Positions 54,001-63,512 of a DNA stretch of 64,000 nt are shown here, one piece after another. A program made the translations under genes and the position numbers. This DNA comes from Cenococcum geophilum 1.58. Its lineage: Eukaryota > Ascomycota > Dothideomycetes > Gloniales > Gloniaceae. The notes under the pieces were generated by a model. That model did not search any database. It worked only from the letters and a program-made list of their open reading frames with translations, and was not told the DNA's origin. Position 1 is the first letter of the stretch. Each line of letters begins with the position of its first letter. The stretch covers positions 1,984,001 through 2,048,000 of the forward strand of contig KV748193.1 in assembly GCA_001692895.1 (NCBI GenBank). Direction: 5' to 3'.

Positions 54001-54136
54001 TTAATTATAAGGATATAGACAATAAAATATAGTATAAGGTTAAGTAAATAGGCTATAATAAGACTACCTAAAAGCCACTATAGAATTTAAAAAACGCTAT
54101 AGGAAAAGTATAGAAGTATTAGAAGAGAATAGGTTA
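51042..54136 (+). pseudogene. G3 pol: RT, RNase H, integrase, chromodomain
   Basis: The longest readable pol in the window. RT from about 51410, with YSLPLINEI near 51585 and active site AYLKNIIIYL at 51828-51857 (Y-x-D-D lost). RNase H with LELNYNIYNKELL at 52373-52412. Integrase zinc region about 52900-53060; catalytic core 53160-53480 with IIVDKLTK, ISDRDLKF near 53290 intact, and DS*IERLN*TLE near 53390. Chromodomain at 53990-54115 (YK.K*IGYNKTT*). Ends at TAA 54134-54136. Gln/Trp stops throughout. Overlaps the antisense frame at 54097-54470 tail to tail. Confidence 0.93.
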
Positions 54137-54470
54137 AGTAATATTAAAAAGGAGCTAAAGATAAAGGAATTAGTTAAAGGTAATAGATAAGCCGGATTAC
54201 CTAAAGGATCTACTACTAGCGTATAAACTATTTCTGCCTCTCTATAATTAGAATCCTTTTTAGCCTCCTTAGCCTTAGGCTTAAAGAGACCTTACTTAAC
54301 AAGACGGAACTCCTTAGAGTATACCTTTTTATAACCTTTTAATAAATAAGATAATTAAGTATAAGTATTAAGTTAAGCCTTTAGAGCCTAAGACGCCTTA
54401 TTAAAATAACGTTAAACTTTAATAAGGGCCTTAGCTAGCTTACTCTTTAGTTTTTTTAGCCACTACTAAT
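54097..54470 (-). pseudogene. Antisense ORF of G3, coiled-coil segment
   Basis: Minus-strand frame converging on pol. Reads WLKKLKSKLAKALIKV from 54462 leftwards, then an amphipathic Lys/Gln-rich stretch with KGYKKVYSKEFRLVK*GL, a Pro/Ser tail, and a stop at 54099-54097. Only RIP-type stops interrupt it. The same segment recurs in G5 (55426-55779, KLNSNLA*ALAKLKR and KKVYKKVYFKK*KLIE*GL). A frame continues upstream through 54593 and, beyond G5, 62604-62871. It resembles, by memory, small coiled-coil proteins often predicted beside fungal LTR elements. Function unknown. Confidence 0.55.
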
Positions 54471-54598
54471 ACGTAAGACCCTAAGACAAATTAAATAAGG
54501 AAGTTAGAGACTTTAGAAAGTAATAAGACGCGTATATTTAGCGTTAGAGATAAATTAAATATTATAGGATAATTGTATATTTGCTTGTATACACTTAG

Positions 54599-55019
54599 TG
54601 TAACGGAGCCTTGTAGTAGGAACTACGGTGAACTCATTAATAGGCTAGGTATATAGGTATTGTAAGTAAGTTAACAACGTAATAACAACTGGTAGAGTAG
54701 TTGCCCAATAGATTAACTCTAATTATATTCTAAGAATTACTATAAGGAAGGAACTATCTAGGTAGGGACTAAGGGTCCTTAAATATATAACCGTACTCCT
54801 ATAAAATCCTTCTTATACGTAAAGTACGCAGTATATATAAGGTACGTAAGTTCCTCCTATTCCTCTCGTTCTTTATATAGCACCTTATATAACCTTAGTT
54901 ACTATTCCTTATTATATAGTTTTATAGGTTTTATCCTAGACCGTGCTTATATTAACTAACTAGCATCTTCTAACTCCTCTCTAAGTAGTTATAACATTGT
55001 ACTTAAAGCGTTTATAACA
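54599..55019 (-). repeat. G5 3' LTR (left)
   Basis: 421 bp, more RIP-mutated than the right copy (e.g. cagtatatataagg against cagtgtatataagg). The plus strand, antisense to G5, carries a TATA-like box at 54828-54838, upstream of the antisense frame. Confidence 0.95.
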
Positions 55020-55779
55020 CCATCTCCCTTCTCTTTATCTTCGTCCTTAAAGATACCTAGCATCTCTAAGTTGTTTACTAGAGGTATAATATCCGTCTAA
55101 TTAATTTGGTTAATATTATTACTTATAATACCTAAAGCCTCTTCTTCTTTATATACGCAACGTCGTGCTCGCACTATTGCTGTAATATTATTAATTAGTA
55201 AAATAATAGCGTCTCCGTGTTCTTATTGCTTAAAAGAGGGGTTAGTTTATATTGCGTTAGTAAGTCCTTTGTCTTAACAACCCTCTTCCTATTTAGAGTG
55301 TACTAAAGCAAACGTTTAATTATCTTGCGATGTTTATTCTACTTCTAACGCTAAATATACGCGTCCTATAACTCTTAATAGTCTCTAAGTTCCCTAAGTA
55401 ATTTGTTATAGGGTCTTATATTTAATCTACCGCTGCGAAGCTTAATAGTAATTTAGCGTAGGCCCTAGCTAAGCTTAAGCGTTCTCGTAATGCGGAACAG
55501 AAGGCCTTAGATACTTAGATTGCTGCCTTTACTCGCTTGCTTTGTCTTAAAAAGGTATATAAGAAGGTTTATTTTAAGAAGTAGAAACTTATAGAATAAG
55601 GTCTATAGGAACTTAGTAATAAAAGAACGGATTCTCTTTTAACAGAGAAGGAAATAACTCCAAGTAGTTCGGCAGTCGCTCTTCCTAGGTCCCCCTTAGG
55701 TAACTCGTTCTTTAGCGATTCCTCTTTATTAATATTGCCTGACCTTTTCTCTTCTAATACTCCTATACCTTTCCTATAG
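55020..55779 (+). pseudogene. Antisense ORF of G5
   Basis: Plus-strand frame directly inside the G5 3' LTR, opposite to pol. First part 55020-55390 reads SPFSLSSSLKIPSISK and later SNAKYTRPITLNSL; after a +1/-1 shift near 55400-55425, which could be an indel or an intron, the second part 55426-55779 reads AKLNSNLA*ALAKLKRSRNAE, then AAFTRLLCLKKVYKKVYFKK, an acidic/Ser tail (TEKEITPSSSA) and a stop at 55777-55779. Stops inside are Gln-type only. Homologous to the antisense frame of G3. It ends tail to tail with the G5 pol, overlapping its last codons. Confidence 0.55.
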
Positions 55780-58700
55780 CGTTCTTTAGGTTCTTTAGTA
55801 GCTCCTAGGTAGTCTTATTATAGCCTATTTACTTTACTTCGTACTATATTTTATTATCTACGTCCTTATAACTAACGATCTTTAAAACTTACTATTTGTC
55901 TTCCTCTTATCCTCTATATATGTCTGCTTTATAAACTAGTAGCTTAACATTCCTATATACTAGCTTTAGCATTACGATATGCTATATAGGGTAGATCTTT
56001 ATCCTAGCTAGTAGGTTTAACTTAAATATAACCGGTGAAATTTTTTATATAATTTTAAAAGGTCCTAGTCTAACGTGGTCTAACTTCTTACTTAGTTATT
56101 AACTCTTGAAATTTTTATATAGTAGCTATACTTTATCTCCCTCCTTAAGATCTAGTCCCTCAGATCTCTTAGCATCGTAGTACTTTTTTATCCTTTACTG
56201 TACTACCTTAGCTATTTCTATAAGGTCTACATAAAGATTATTAAACTCTTTATTTTTTACTTAGCTGTGCTATTTATCTTCTTTACTTAATATGGTAATA
56301 ATAAGGTCCTTAGCTTATATCCGTAATTCGCCTTAAATAGTAACGTGCCTATTTCTTCTTATAGTGTTATATTGTATATAAACTATATAACTAGTAATAG
56401 CGATACCCAATTATTCTATATATAGTTGACATAATGCTTTAGATACTGCTCTAGTGTCTAATTTAATCTTTCTGTTTGCCTATCTGTCTGTAGATAATAT
56501 ATAGTGGAAGTTATTACTTAAACTTCTTGCTCTACTAAGAATACTTCTTAAAATGCTGCTATAAATCTTGGATCTCTATCTAATATAATCTTATTTAGTG
56601 CTCTATATCTTATAAATACTTCTTTAATATAGATTCTAGCGATATCTTCCGCTAATATTTCTTCTGTATATGCTATAAAGTATCCCTACTTTATAAGCTT
56701 GTCTACTATTACTAAGATTATGTTATAATCTTATCTGGTAATAGGATCTCTTAACTTTAGTAACTTAATAATAAAGTTCTATAATATAACCTCCTATAGT
56801 CTCTTCGGTATTTTAATAGGTTGTAGCCCTCTATATAGCTTATACCTTATTAGTTTGTTTCTTTAGCAATCTAGATATTCTTTAGTAATTTTCCGTGCTA
56901 AACCCTAGATTCCATTAATGATATACTCCTCTTAAAGTCTTAATACTAAGCCTGTAGCTCTGTTATGTCCTTAAGTTAGTCCCTTATAAAATGACTTAAT
57001 AAACTCCTTTATAATTAATCTTGGTATATATATTACTTCTTAATTCTTATACTACTCTAAGTCTAGATTCTCTACCTATATATTTTAGATCTTTTATATC
57101 TAATTACTCTCTAGTAAATTATAGATCTGTTCTTCTTATATTGCTGTAATTTTTGGATAATTGTATCTAATTAATCCGTCTATGTCTTTTCGCAATAAAG
57201 CCCCTAATGGCTTTTTATTATTCTATAGTTTAGTCTTTCTACTTAGAGCATCTGCTTGTGCATTTTCTATACCCTTAGTATGCTAAATCTTAAAATAGTA
57301 CTCTGTAAGTATCTCCGCCCATCTAACCTGTTTATAATTAAGTTCTTTTGTTATTAGGAACCCCGTTAGGTTCTTATAATCTATTTTAACTATAAATAGT
57401 TTTTCTATACCTTATAAGAATAATCTTTATTCCTTTAGTGCTGTAACTATACCTAATAACTCTTTGTTATAGATGTTATAGTTTAGTTCCGGTAGTGTTA
57501 TTTTTTAACTATAGTATACCACTAAGTGCTATCTATCTTTATATTTCTATAGAAAGCACGCTCCTAGTATATAGTCTAATATATCCGTTTCGACCACTAT
57601 CTCTAACTATAGTTAATAGATTTTAAGAACTGGCTCCTAGGTAAACAACTATTTGATTTTCTTAAATAGTTCCTTTTATTTCTCTCCCTATGCCTATAGT
57701 TCTTTCTTCTTTATTAATCTTGTAAGTGGCTTAATATCCTTTAACTATTAAGCTATAAACCTTCTATAGTANTNGCAGAANCCTANAAATAACCTTAACT
57801 NTNTTANATTTTCTAGTTCTTNCNAATTTACTATAGCCTTAATCTTCTTTAGATCTATACTAAGTTAGCCTAGTTTAATAATAAATTTAATGAAATCCGT
57901 CTTCCTGGTAAAGAACTTGTATTTCTTAATTACTACTAGTATCTGCTCTTCCTGTAGTCTCTTTAAGACCCATTTAACGTATTCTCTATATTCTTCCTTA
58001 CTTATTAAGTAGATAATAATATTATTAAGACATACTATAATAAATTCATCTAAGTATTCTTTTAGTATATTGTTAATACGCTTTTAAAACGTTGCTAGTG
58101 TGTTTATAAGCCTGAATTGCATAACTAGTGGTTTATATAGTCCTTCCTTTAACCTAAAGGCTGCCTTTTATTTGTCGCCTTTCTTAATCCTAATTTAATA
58201 GTACGCCCATCTTAGATCTATCCTCGTAAAGATTTGCGCATTGCTGATCCTATCTTGGATTTTGCTAATTAAGGGTAAAGAATACCTATCCTTTTTGGTA
58301 ATGCTGTTTAACTATTTATAGTTAATGCATAGCCTAAGTTTTCTATTCTTCTTTGGTACGAATAGTACTAGATATCCTGCTAATAACTATAATAGTCTAA
58401 TATATCCTTTTCGAAGATTTTTCTAGACAAACTCCTTAAGTGCCTATAACTCTTTTTCTATTAACTTATAGGTTGGGTAAAACCTTAGACTTATTCCTAG
58501 TTTTAACTCTATCTTATAGTCCTATGCTATATACTCTAATAGCTTTTTACTTTCTAGTAACTATAACTTTTTGCCATATTTATGGTATTTCTTTAGTATA
58601 TAACTTAATTCTTAATTAGTTTTCTTATATGTCGCTCCGACTTAGTACTATACTAACTTAGTTTATTATTATATCTTATGTTATTATATATCTCTAATAT

Positions 58701-59100
58701 TAACCTAACCTATAACCTAATTAATCTTTAGATTATATTCCTATAACTAAGGCATTCCTAATACTGCCTTATTATTCTCTAATGGTAATATATTAAAAGA
58801 CATCTTAACTTATCTCCCTTTAATAGTTATCTAAATTAGTCCTATTTTAAGATTAATAATGCCTCCTCCGTAGGTTATTGGATCTCCTAAAATTATTACT
58901 AATAGATAAGGGTGCTCTTTTTGCCTATATGGTAGCCCTATTCTTTTAACTGCTACTAGTAAAATATGGTTCCTTATTGCTCCACTATCTACTAATACTT
59001 TAAACTGCTGATCTTGCTATTTAACTCTTAGATTTAGGTGTCGTTTTTAAATTCCTTTAAGGGTCTAAGGCTCTACTACTAGCTCCCTCTGGTCCTATAG
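55700..59100 (-). pseudogene. G5 pol: protease, RT, RNase H, integrase, chromodomain
   Basis: Right to left: protease with FKVLVDSGA at 58978-59005, catalytic Asp kept; RT active site near 58008-58040 reads VCLNNIIIYL (LDD to LNN); RNase H near 57455-57495 (LNYNIYNKELL); integrase 56100-56950 with KIILDRDP near 56565-56590 (ISDRDP family motif); chromodomain 55785-55915 (YEVK*IGYNKTT*). Ambiguous bases cluster at 57771-57823 within RT. Very similar to G3 pol on the other strand. Confidence 0.92.
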
Positions 59101-60680
59101 GCCTCTACTTTTCCTAACTATTAGCTACTTAATCCTATTACACTTAGCTTATTCTTTAGCTAATGCCTAGTTTACTTTTTGTCTTTAATATACCATAGAT
59201 AGGTGTTCTCTAGACATTTCTACTATTATTATCTATCTAAGCATTCTTCCGTAAGGAACCTTTCTAGTTAAAGTATTAAACTTCCTTCCTTTTAGACTTC
59301 TGCTAAATGCCAGCTATATATATACTTAGCATTCCTATACTATTATTCCTCTATTATCTAGTATATCCTTATAGGGTATTTCTAGTTCTTTTCCTTTAGA
59401 TTTTTATGCATCTTATATATATTATCTACGCATGCAATCCATAATAGCGTGTAGTGTGCTAGGTGCTTTAGGTTAACTCTTAACTTATCTTTATCTTTAA
59501 GTTTAAACCTCTATTATACTAATCTAAACGTTATAACTTTATTTATAGGTACTAAGATACGCCTCTCGCTTTTCTAGTCCTCTAATTGTTTCTCTAGATC
59601 CTTTAATATTATAATTAAGGCTCCCTTAATATAATTTATTGCTTTTTCCGTAATTAGGTGGTCTTGGATAACTTTTTCGTCCAACTACATATAGAAATCT
59701 TCCCACTTATTATTATGTCGTTGCCTATACCACTTTTAGTACAGCTGTTAGAGTGTATACAGTCTGTCCGTAAGGAAGTATCTTCTTATTACTGCGTTAT
59801 AATAGCCTTTTATATATCGTTCTTTAAACCTAATAGAAATCCCTAGATCCTCTTCTTATTCCAGTTTAGTAAGCTACTTAGCCCTTAGTGTGCCTATCTT
59901 AGGTCTATTAGTAATTCTTTATATAAGTGCTTTATCCCTTATATATCCTAATATACTAAATCTCTTATCTAGTTTCTGTTCTTGCTATAAGGTAATTCTT
60001 ACTTTAAATTCCTCTATAGTTTCTTTCTTTTTGCGTCTTATAAGTAGATCTTTAAAGTTTTCTTACTTCTTAATCTTAGTATTAAATTCTTAATCTTTAG
60101 TCTAAATATCTTATTTAACTAGTAAGTCCTCTAGGTCTATATATCTATCTCCTAATCTAACTACTGTTTATATTACAGATTCTCTAATTTATAGCAAAGC
60201 CGCTTACTTCTTACTTATAGGTGTCCTTATTTATACTCCAAACTCTTAACCCCTTAGATTTTTTAATCCTAAGCTTGCCTCTTTCTTAAGCTGCGCTCCA
60301 GCCTTAGTCTAACTAGGCTTTACTAGTATTCTTATCTCATCTTAAAAGTCTTAAATCTCACTTATCTTGTCTTAAGAATCTTATGCCGTTAGGAACACTT
60401 ATCCCAAGCTTATTTATATGTTCTTGAACTAAGCTACTGCCCTACTCTATTGGTTTGCGTCTGTTATAGGTCCTTAAGTATACCTTATCTCTTCTTAAGA
60501 ATCTTAGTCGTCTTTTATCTCGTCTTAAGAATCTTAAGCCTTTAGCCTTTTGCCTTTATTAAGTGGTAAGCTAGCACTAGTAGTTATCTGCTTGCTTAAT
60601 TATCTTTAAATATTGCTCCTTTTGTCTTATAAAGCAATGGATGCTATATCTAATGGTATTATAATGCCTATTACTAAACC
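59101..60680 (-). pseudogene. G5 gag-pol linker region
   Basis: Counterpart of 37301-38799 plus 44433-44760 of G3, on the minus strand. Reiterated short segments (cgtcttaagaatctta and related) at 60330-60540. Open plus-strand stretches at 59658-59846 and 59890-60093 are shadows. Confidence 0.55.
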
Positions 60681-62135
60681 TTGCTCTATAGCGGTCTTAG
60701 TCTCTACTTCTATTACGTTATTAAGGTTTAGATACCCCTAGTTAGTTCCTTTACTATCCTTATCGCTATTAATTAATAAGTACTCCGACTCTATTATTAT
60801 TACTAATTATTATCCGCATATTACTATAATATCTTAATCTAGCTTATAGAGTCGATCTTATTCTTTATCTAACTCTTTAGTTCCTTTAAGTCCTTTTAAC
60901 TCTAGCTCTTATAGCTAATAGCTTACACCGTACTTAGCGTCTTTATAAATCTGGTATATATTGTTATAATAAAACGCAAAACTTCTAATTAAACACTCTT
61001 TTGTTCCTTATAGTACACTATTATCCCTCTATATATATATATTATATACTATTAGTCTAATTCCCTTTACTACGTAATAACTCTAACTACTTCTATAGTC
61101 TTTAATAAAATAACCCTGTTTTCCATAATTTATATAAGCTCTATTTTTAAACTATTGCTTTTACTATAGAGTCCGCTTAAACGTCTTCCGCTATTAAGAT
61201 CCTTGGTTTAGCCTATGTTCCTTAGTCCTATAATTACTTAATCTTTAACTTCTAGGTTTCTATAGTTGCTTTCCCTATCTCTTATAGGTTTCTCTAGTAC
61301 TACTTAGGTCTATTAGCTCTACGCCATACCATAGTTTCTAATTTAGCTTTAGTTGTTACGTACTCTACGTCTTATATAACTATAGAACTCTATCCTAACC
61401 TCTCTTAGCCTATTCCCTTTAGAAGATCCTATTATTAATCTTAATTGCTTAATCTATTAATTCCCTTAGGGTATCCGCATCTTCTATTAGAATAATTACG
61501 TCCTAGACTTTAGCCTTAAGTCCCTATTTATACTATGCTATAAGCGCCTTATTATTCTATTTAACCTATATAGCAAGTATTTAAAACTATGTCGTGTACT
61601 TAATTACTAAAGTTCGCTGTGTTAGGTCCTAAAGCTTTCTCTTTACTATAGTTGTTGCTTCTAGGTCCCCAAATATCTGTGTTAATTATTCCGTGAATTT
61701 TGCCTAGCTAGAAAACACAAATTATACCTCTTAATTAGTAGTAGTTATTCCGTTAGTCTATATTTCTATTAAGTAGGGTTTAAACTATTTAAGTGCCTAA
61801 CCTATTAGGAATAGTCCTACGTAGGCTATCTAATCCATTATTGTGGCTAACTTAGCCCCTTCTTATATAACTTTAAATGTATTTACGTTAGGAATCCTTT
61901 AAGCTTTAATCTCTCCCCTAAGAATTATTTAATTAAAGGTAACTTAACCTTTACTACTCTAATCCTATTAAGTCTTTCTTTAAGTGTTTAGTTATTCTCG
62001 TTTAACCTATTAATAATTTCCTATAACTGCCCAACCGTAACTAGTTGTGAGTTAGTATCTTATATACTTATATCTCCACTTAACCTTAAAGTAGTTGCTG
62101 CCGTTAACGGCGTTATAGTGGCTGCTTTTAGTGGT
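60681..62135 (-). pseudogene. G5 gag, RIP-degraded
   Basis: Minus-strand homologue of the G3 gag. Near 62080-62130 it reads PLKAATITPLTAAT, then VTVGQL*EIINRLNENN near 62000-62050 and VKLPLIK*FLGERLKLKGF near 61900-61960. The zinc-knuckle region lies near 61110-61145, again Cys/His-depleted. No intact start. Confidence 0.85.
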
Positions 62136-62177
62136 ATATTGTTTGACTTATTAAAACCATAACTATAGTAGTAATTA

Positions 62178-62598
62178 TGTAATGGAGCCTTATAGTAGGA
62201 ACTACGGTGGACTTATTAATAGGCTAGGTATATAGGTATTATAAGTAAGTTAACAATATAATAATAACTAGTGGAGTAGTTGCCTAATAGATTAACTCTA
62301 ATTATATTCTAAGAATTACTATAAGGAAGGAACTATCTAGGTAGGGACTAAGGGTCCTTAAATACATAACCGTACTCCTATAAAATCCTTCTTGTACGTG
62401 AAGTACGCAGTGTATATAAGGTACGTGAGTTCCTCCCGTTCCTCTTGTTCCTTACGTAGCACCTTATGTAACCTCGGTTACCATTCCTCGTCACATAGTT
62501 CCACGGGTTCCATCCTGGACCGTGCTTATATTAACTAACTAGCTTCTTCCGACTCCTCTCCAAGTAGTCATAACATTGTACTTAAAGCGTTCGTAACA
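62178..62598 (-). repeat. G5 5' LTR (right)
   Basis: 421 bp, TGTAATGGAGCC ... GTTCGTAACA on the plus strand. The least mutated LTR of the pair, keeping cacgtgagttcc-type CA and TG. Confidence 0.95.
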
Positions 62599-62603
62599 CT
62601 TAG

Positions 62604-62871
62604 TATAGAAAGAAGATTGGCAACTAGACGGAGATATAATCGTAATATATACTAACTTTTTCTCTATACAATAAGAATAGGATAGTATAACTTTACTAAA
62701 TAAAAGAATAAATGTTACTAGCTAATTATAACGGTTAAACGCAAAGGATTTAATAGGAGGCATTAGGAATAATAAAGGTCATTAAATTAAAGATAGGAAT
62801 GCTATACCTCTAATAGACGACTTAGAGATAAGAGATATCTTTAAGGACAAAGATAAAAAGGAGGGGGATAG
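62604..62871 (-). other. G3 3' region, upstream part of antisense frame
   Basis: Between G5 and the G3 3' LTR. On the minus strand it reads LSPSFLSLSLKISLISKSSIRGI, parallel to SPFSLSSSLKIPSISKLFTRGI in G5, so it carries the N-terminal part of the antisense ORF. The plus strand ends with the polypurine tract aaaaaggagggggatag (62854-62870) just before the LTR. Confidence 0.55.
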
Positions 62872-63292
62872 TATTACGGACCTTATATCGGCAGTAGTGG
62901 AACTACTAAAAAGAGATATAAACGGGCTAGTGGTAGAAATATAGGAGGTACTAGAGCCAGTTAAACTATAGGATAAGGGGTAGCCGAGTTATATAGTTAG
63001 TTATATTATAAGTTCGGAACGTAGAAATATAGGAACGTAGGAACGTAATATACTGACGTACTAACGTACTAACGTACTTAGTACATTTCTTAGGCGCAGT
63101 ATTATATACTTAAAGGACCACAGTCCCTATCTAAATAGTTCTCTTCTTTATAGTAAATCTTAGAATATAATTAGAGTTAATCTATTGGGCAACCACTCTA
63201 CTAGTTGTTATTATATTATTAACTTCTCGTTTACCTATATACCCAGCCTATTAACAAGTCTACCGTAGTATTTCCTATAAGGCTTTGTTATA
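62872..63292 (+). repeat. G3 3' LTR
   Basis: 421 bp. Starts TATTACGG (TG decayed) and ends TTGTTATA, followed by CTAAG. Confidence 0.95.
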
Positions 63293-63297
63293 CTAAG

Positions 63298-63512
63298 CTT
63301 AAAAAGACTGCCTAAGTACCCCTCCTACTAATATAAAACAATAAGGCTTTATTATAGTATAAGGTTATATAAAGTTAGTTATTATTTTTGCCTAATATTG
63401 GCAATACTATATTGCCGATATATTTCCGATAACTAATATTTTATTAGCTCTTATTACTTAGTATTAGTGCTAGGTCTAGGCATAAACAAGCGACTTAGTA
63501 AGTCCCGTAACA
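63298..63512 (-). repeat. LTR X, right 215 bp
   Basis: Right part of the LTR cut by G3; with 35654-35687 it makes a 249-bp LTR bounded by TGTTACG and CGTAACA. Contains a perfect small dyad ggcaatactatattgcc near 63405-63425. AT-rich and RIP-mutated. Confidence 0.75.

Follow-up and report, generated by a model that had tools for sequence, protein, structure and literature searches.

We are highly confident, on the strength of sequence comparisons, that the two Ty3/Gypsy retrotransposons G3 and G5 of Cenococcum geophilum 1.58 contain a real accessory gene on the strand opposite to pol. Both lie in a 64,000-nucleotide stretch of contig KV748193.1 (positions 1,984,001 to 2,048,000; hereafter the window, from whose first letter all coordinates are counted), and both are chromodomain elements altered by repeat-induced point mutation (RIP). 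An earlier note on this DNA had described a frame opposite to pol, located between pol and the 3′ long terminal repeat (LTR) and ending tail to tail with pol. This frame is present in G3 and in G5, and the cited peptide pieces (SNAKYTR, KKVYKKVY and others) are found in the sequence. Relatives, exon structure, a third-position bias of transversions and RIP-explained stops give good support to the proposal that these chromodomain Gypsy elements carry an additional antisense gene. The single frame assumed for it had to be given up: SNAKYTR codons start at 0 mod 3 and KKVYKKVY codons at 1 mod 3, G3 switches frame at the same place as G5, and the relatives have an intron there. The Ser-rich start was rejected as protein as well. 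It corresponds to the polypurine tract and the leader beside the LTR, read in antisense.

The gene map below gives, for each part, the strand and the related predicted proteins (P numbers) that support it.

55020 to 55045, minus strand: polypurine tract region of G5, whose complement is the supposed Ser/Lys start; the right boundary is approximate.
55020 to 55083, plus strand: leader exon of the G5 antisense gene, deduced for G5 from copies matching P0007, with the likely leader-intron donor at 55084.
55206 to 55356, plus strand: coding exon 1 of G5 with the cysteine cluster, located by tblastn of P0005, P0007, P0009–P0012 and P0014; the conserved start codon at 55206 is mutated to ATA.
55357 to 55411, plus strand: intron 2 of G5, 55 nucleotides, donor RIP-mutated to AT, acceptor TAG.
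55412 to 55779, plus strand: coding exon 2 of G5 with a coiled coil and an FSSDTPIPF-like tail, located by tblastn of P0001–P0003, P0007, P0015 and P0016 and by the phase test; stop codon at 55777–55779.
62831 to 62899, minus strand: leader of the G3 antisense gene, matching residues 2–24 of P0007.
62599 to 62688, minus strand: first part of G3 exon 1, up to the G5 insertion (P0007, P0010, P0011).
54536 to 54598, minus strand: second part of G3 exon 1, beyond the G5 insertion (P0011, P0012, P0014).
54481 to 54535, minus strand: intron 2 of G3, identified in the sequence through its homology to G5.
54097 to 54480, minus strand: exon 2 of G3, with an early frame change (P0002, P0003, P0007, P0013).

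The G3 gene is thus interrupted by the insertion of G5, and its exon 2 shifts frame once near its beginning. For G5's family, the predicted gene product has about 172 residues. Intron 2 measures 55 nucleotides in 65 of the 66 aligned loci and 57 in one. Its 3′ end reads AG in 58 loci, AA in seven and AT in one. The donor is GT in one locus and AT in 65, as expected if RIP struck TG. The leader exon probably starts in the LTR. In genomic copies, the leader matches the first residues of P0007 in a different frame and is followed downstream by a GT...AG stretch, which points to a likely leader intron in the antisense gene.

The relatives were found by protein searches. With the exon-2 piece of one copy as query (X placed at stops), two proteins were obtained among 168 candidates; P0002 led to six of 93 and P0005 to 16 of 777, the query included. 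In total, 16 distinct related predicted proteins are known from metagenome sets, all from JGI or ENA. Not all of them are intact, as P0011, P0012 and P0014 resemble RIP-mutated readings of exon 1. Six relatives (P0002, P0004, P0005, P0007, P0013 and P0015, on contigs of 921–1423 bases) contain the joined exon junction, AEWS or SEWS, and P0007 with its 239 residues spans both exons through to the tail. The joined forms are most simply explained as antisense messenger RNA (mRNA), because an antisense intron should stay unspliced in the sense RNA of the element. Since the intron should likewise be retained in the sense genomic RNA, a spliced gene of this kind could persist in a retrotransposon, and joined-exon sequences could serve as a marker of antisense mRNA. 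Other relatives keep the intron: P0003 (120,785-base contig) reads through it in another frame, and P0009–P0012 and P0014 terminate inside it (contigs of 863 to 31,825 bases). Two points weigh against splicing. Unspliced relatives also occur on short contigs (863 and 1212 bases), so contig size does not tell the two kinds apart, and the joined-exon relatives are predicted metagenome proteins that may stem from transcripts or from genomic DNA. Overall, we consider it quite probable from the exon patterns that the antisense gene is transcribed and spliced. In P0008 (110 amino acids), SDAECTFHVRS stands in place of the joined SDAEWSRVQS or of the intron; this protein possibly represents a copy that lost most of the intron.

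Since RIP makes transitions, only purine/pyrimidine differences were counted, as a RIP-independent test of coding constraint. For the 28 copies of family A, columns in which two or more copies carry the minority state were sorted by position mod 3 (0, 1, 2). In the exon-2 region this gave 11, 1 and 0 transversion columns, with third positions at mod 0, and in the exon-1 region 1, 0 and 6, with third positions at mod 2; LTR columns were flat (4, 5, 5). This test was made without protein guidance. In a second family, B, where only the placement of loci was guided, exon 2 gave 5, 11 and 21 columns at codon positions 1, 2 and 3 (P 0.005). When relatives guided the alignment, position 3 was highest in all 12 within-family tests and P was below 0.05 in seven, the tests overlapping in that two families and three guides per exon were used. 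Fixed differences between the families gave a weaker signal, with P < 0.05 in five of 18 tests, each of them on exon 2; in the plain alignment of exon 1, 15 of the 26 A–B differences fall on third positions (P 0.024). Among the six frames, the antisense frame had the most conservative replacements at transversion codons in nine of nine comparisons and the fewest stops in eight. As the guides are antisense proteins, the guided third-position and six-frame tests are biased toward the antisense frame. Together, transversions and natural relatives provide a way to test a gene in RIP-mutated repeats without a consensus.

Some of these results weaken the case for a coding antisense frame. Pol as a control gave 11, 19 and 8 columns (P 0.078), a weak result although in the right direction; in that region the frame least interrupted by stops carries its third positions at mod 2 as far as about 56260 and at mod 1 in 56500–57219. 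In plain alignments, family B shows no third-position excess in exon 1 (18, 17, 24; P 0.48), and neither do the A–B differences in exon 2 (21, 14, 27 by mod 3; P 0.13). In one of the nine comparisons stops are slightly rarer in the mirrored minus frame. If no antisense gene existed, the frame would simply be complementary to a pol extension, or to non-coding DNA whose likeness is due to homology. The pol-strand frame does extend into exon 2, its stops often lying at sites that read Q or W in some copies, and from 55425 to 55779 the mirrored minus frame is free of columns with stops in at least 90% of copies. Nevertheless, the third positions of exon 2 agree with the antisense frame or with its mirror and not with the frame of pol, replacements favor the antisense frame over the mirrored one in nine of nine comparisons, and in the relatives exon 2 and the cysteine exon are combined. 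On these three grounds a mere complement of pol was rejected, and we regard the absence of a gene as very improbable. Alternatively, the antisense RNA itself could be active through double-stranded RNA or small RNA silencing, the protein being of little weight. The tail-to-tail overlap with pol would fit such a role, and regulatory antisense transcripts have been discussed (PMC7264820). The third-position bias and the conservative replacements, however, require selection on the protein, which leaves this alternative unlikely.

The earlier note had claimed that the stops in the frame are only of RIP type. A difference was counted as RIP-explained if it was C>T or G>A away from the relative; the reverse direction served as comparison. 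Against P0001, the closest relative, 971 (84%) of the 1152 differing residues in family A are explained in this way and 51 (4%) by the reverse. Here the claim about the stops holds, as RIP accounts for 112 of 114 aligned stops in the 28 copies (Q 66, R 25, W 21, E 2). Against more distant relatives it fits less well: 108 of 129 stops are RIP-explained for P0005, 114 of 198 for P0007, 69 of 163 for P0002 and 25 of 68 for P0013. The share drops with the distance of the relative, as both true divergence and misalignment would cause. Over 760 bp in 28 copies, no antisense frame is depleted of stops along its whole length. Columns with a stop in at least 90% of the copies number 15, 14 and 14 in the plus frames and 12, 8 and 18 in the minus frames; the known pol frame has five such columns in 720 bases. 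Taken at face value these counts would contradict the gene, but they result from the intron and from stops at positions common to nearly all copies.

The predicted protein combines a cluster of six cysteines with a long coiled-coil-like helix and has a short conserved tail, FSSDTPIPF. The cysteine spacing in P0005 and P0007 is C-x2-C-x6-C-x13-C-x2-C-x8-C, as in a Zn2Cys6 cluster. Structure prediction gave a single helix of high confidence with 103 residues in P0007 and 75 in P0005. The hydrophobic period of 3.48 (tested range 3.30–3.88) corresponds to the heptad value. Less favorable to a DNA-binding cluster are the following results. No Pfam family reached its cut-off in a search with the relatives, the best scores being 14.5 bits (P0011) against 21 for Zn_clus (PF00172) and 15.4 bits (P0010) against 22 for DUF3716 (PF12511). 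The usual basic residues are absent between the cysteines, and the cysteine part is predicted with a confidence score (pLDDT) of only about 50–66. Zinc binding, dimerization, a nuclear role and self-regulation are what this layout would suggest.

In the explanation we favor, G3 and G5 would each use the gene between pol and the 3′ LTR to produce a separate antisense RNA, starting probably in the 3′ LTR and spliced at the intron in the coding region and probably also in the leader. The product would be a nuclear, dimeric nucleic-acid-binding accessory protein which regulates its own element, with an action like that of HBZ of human T-cell leukemia virus type 1 (HTLV-1), which works from the antisense strand of its provirus. 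Taken as a whole, a real spliced antisense accessory gene whose product is most likely a nuclear dimeric self-regulator, this explanation leans slightly to the probable side. That the product is a nuclear nucleic-acid-binding regulator is a tentative assignment. More speculative still is the specific form in which a Zn2Cys6-like coiled-coil dimer, evolved from a fungal DNA-binding module, binds the LTR and sets the transcription of its own element as an HBZ-like antisense switch; we find this rather doubtful. With a real gene, the protein could also serve particle assembly, RNA packaging or nuclear import, as a helper, built of a cysteine cluster and a coiled coil, for Gag or the pre-integration complex. 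The same protein anatomy fits this role, and nuclear-import accessory roles have been discussed for such open reading frames (ORFs) (PMC7264820), but separate antisense transcription fits a regulator better. We regard a helper function as possible, if on the unlikely side.

The position of the gene between LTR and pol is constant: both flank it in all 28 family-A loci (two with shortened pol) and in eight of eight further loci. Between families A and B, fixed purine/pyrimidine differences in the plain alignment amount to one in 282 columns at the pol end, 26 in 195 in exon 1 and 62 in 343 in exon 2; with guided alignment, exon 1 gave 0, 11 or 14 depending on the guide. Between G3 and G5 (54599–55779 compared with G3 62604–63330 plus 54097–54593 for the 3′ part), transversions reach 8.6–13.1% in LTR windows and 0.8–9.7% along pol; at those few antisense sites that can be aligned they amount to about 10%. 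The 3′ part, LTR plus antisense gene, has diverged faster than the adjoining pol end, by rapid evolution or module exchange. A third set of copies is 73–78% identical to the G5 antisense region (L015:290–1071, L032:2632–3392, L054:2452–3233 and L057:8–725) and probably represents another subfamily.

G3, the host of the insertion, is a relative of G5 in opposite orientation. The boundaries of G5 are as follows.

54599 to 62598, minus strand: G5, chromodomain Ty3/Gypsy element nested in G3, with the target duplication CTTAG at 54594–54598 and 62599–62603; the chromodomain was seen on a family copy.
54599 to 55019, minus strand: 3′ LTR of G5, repeat of 62178–62598.
62178 to 62598, minus strand: 5′ LTR of G5, repeat of 54599–55019.

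The chromodomain (PF00385) scored 29.2 bits against a Pfam cut-off of 25.1 in the pol-end piece of family copy L019. The two LTRs of G5 differ at 44 of 421 sites; because 43 of these are transitions and one is a transversion, their divergence is nearly all RIP-like. RIP is unequal between them, with a GC fraction of 0.44 at 62401–62598 (right half of the 5′ LTR) and 0.31 at 54821–55019 (3′ LTR). Single N letters cluster at 57772–57824 in G5 pol, and the G5 internal region holds a 62-nucleotide direct repeat, 81% identical and spaced by 153 bases, at 60331–60545. DNA searches of the 177 Mb genome gave 3092 candidate places for a G5 piece and 2351 and 2716 for two G3 pieces, of which 40 were scored in each case. 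By tblastn in the same genome, at least 152 matches were found for P0005 and at least 150 for P0003, both lower bounds with about 150 candidates scored per query.

Genes antisense to pol and lying between it and the 3′ LTR form an established class, with plant Grande and Retand (PMC7264820, PMC11963269) and brtn of fungal Boty (PMC8365987, PMC4227169, PMC5987419, PMC7264820) as examples; according to PMC7264820, their function in LTR retrotransposons has yet to be settled. The G3/G5 gene is a further fungal case of this class of antisense additional ORFs (aORF-3R): it lies antisense to pol between pol and the 3′ LTR, and it is conserved as coding in many family copies. According to PMC8365987, PMC4227169, PMC5987419 and PMC7264820, brtn is an additional antisense gene of Boty-like elements in Botrytis cinerea, so that here too a fungal LTR element carries such a gene, and Boty pol also has a chromodomain (PMC4227169). 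The G3/G5 gene is perhaps even a distant BRTN. The brtn gene of Boty-like elements is reportedly treated by Zhao et al. (2011, Virology 417:248).

For the additional ORFs of plant Gypsy elements (Grande gene23, RIRE2, Retand TRP28), nuclear or DNA-binding roles have been proposed (PMC7264820 and PMC11963269). Unlike these, the G3/G5 gene is fungal, its coding region contains an intron, and its predicted protein has a cluster of six cysteines and a coiled coil. The cysteine spacing of P0005 and P0007 resembles Zn2Cys6 and DUF3716, but the scores and missing basic residues described above set the protein apart. With HTLV-1 HBZ it shares the nature of an antisense accessory gene of an integrated retroelement. 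HBZ is spliced and contains a leucine zipper. An antisense promoter in the 3′ LTR of HTLV (PMC7264820) and a nuclear location of HBZ (PMC11963269) have been described. Since the domain type differs, the likeness is an analogy, and homology is not claimed. To these known systems G3 and G5 contribute relatives whose frames are naturally open, a map of the exons, a predicted arrangement of domains and, for a fungal element, a hypothesis that can be tested.
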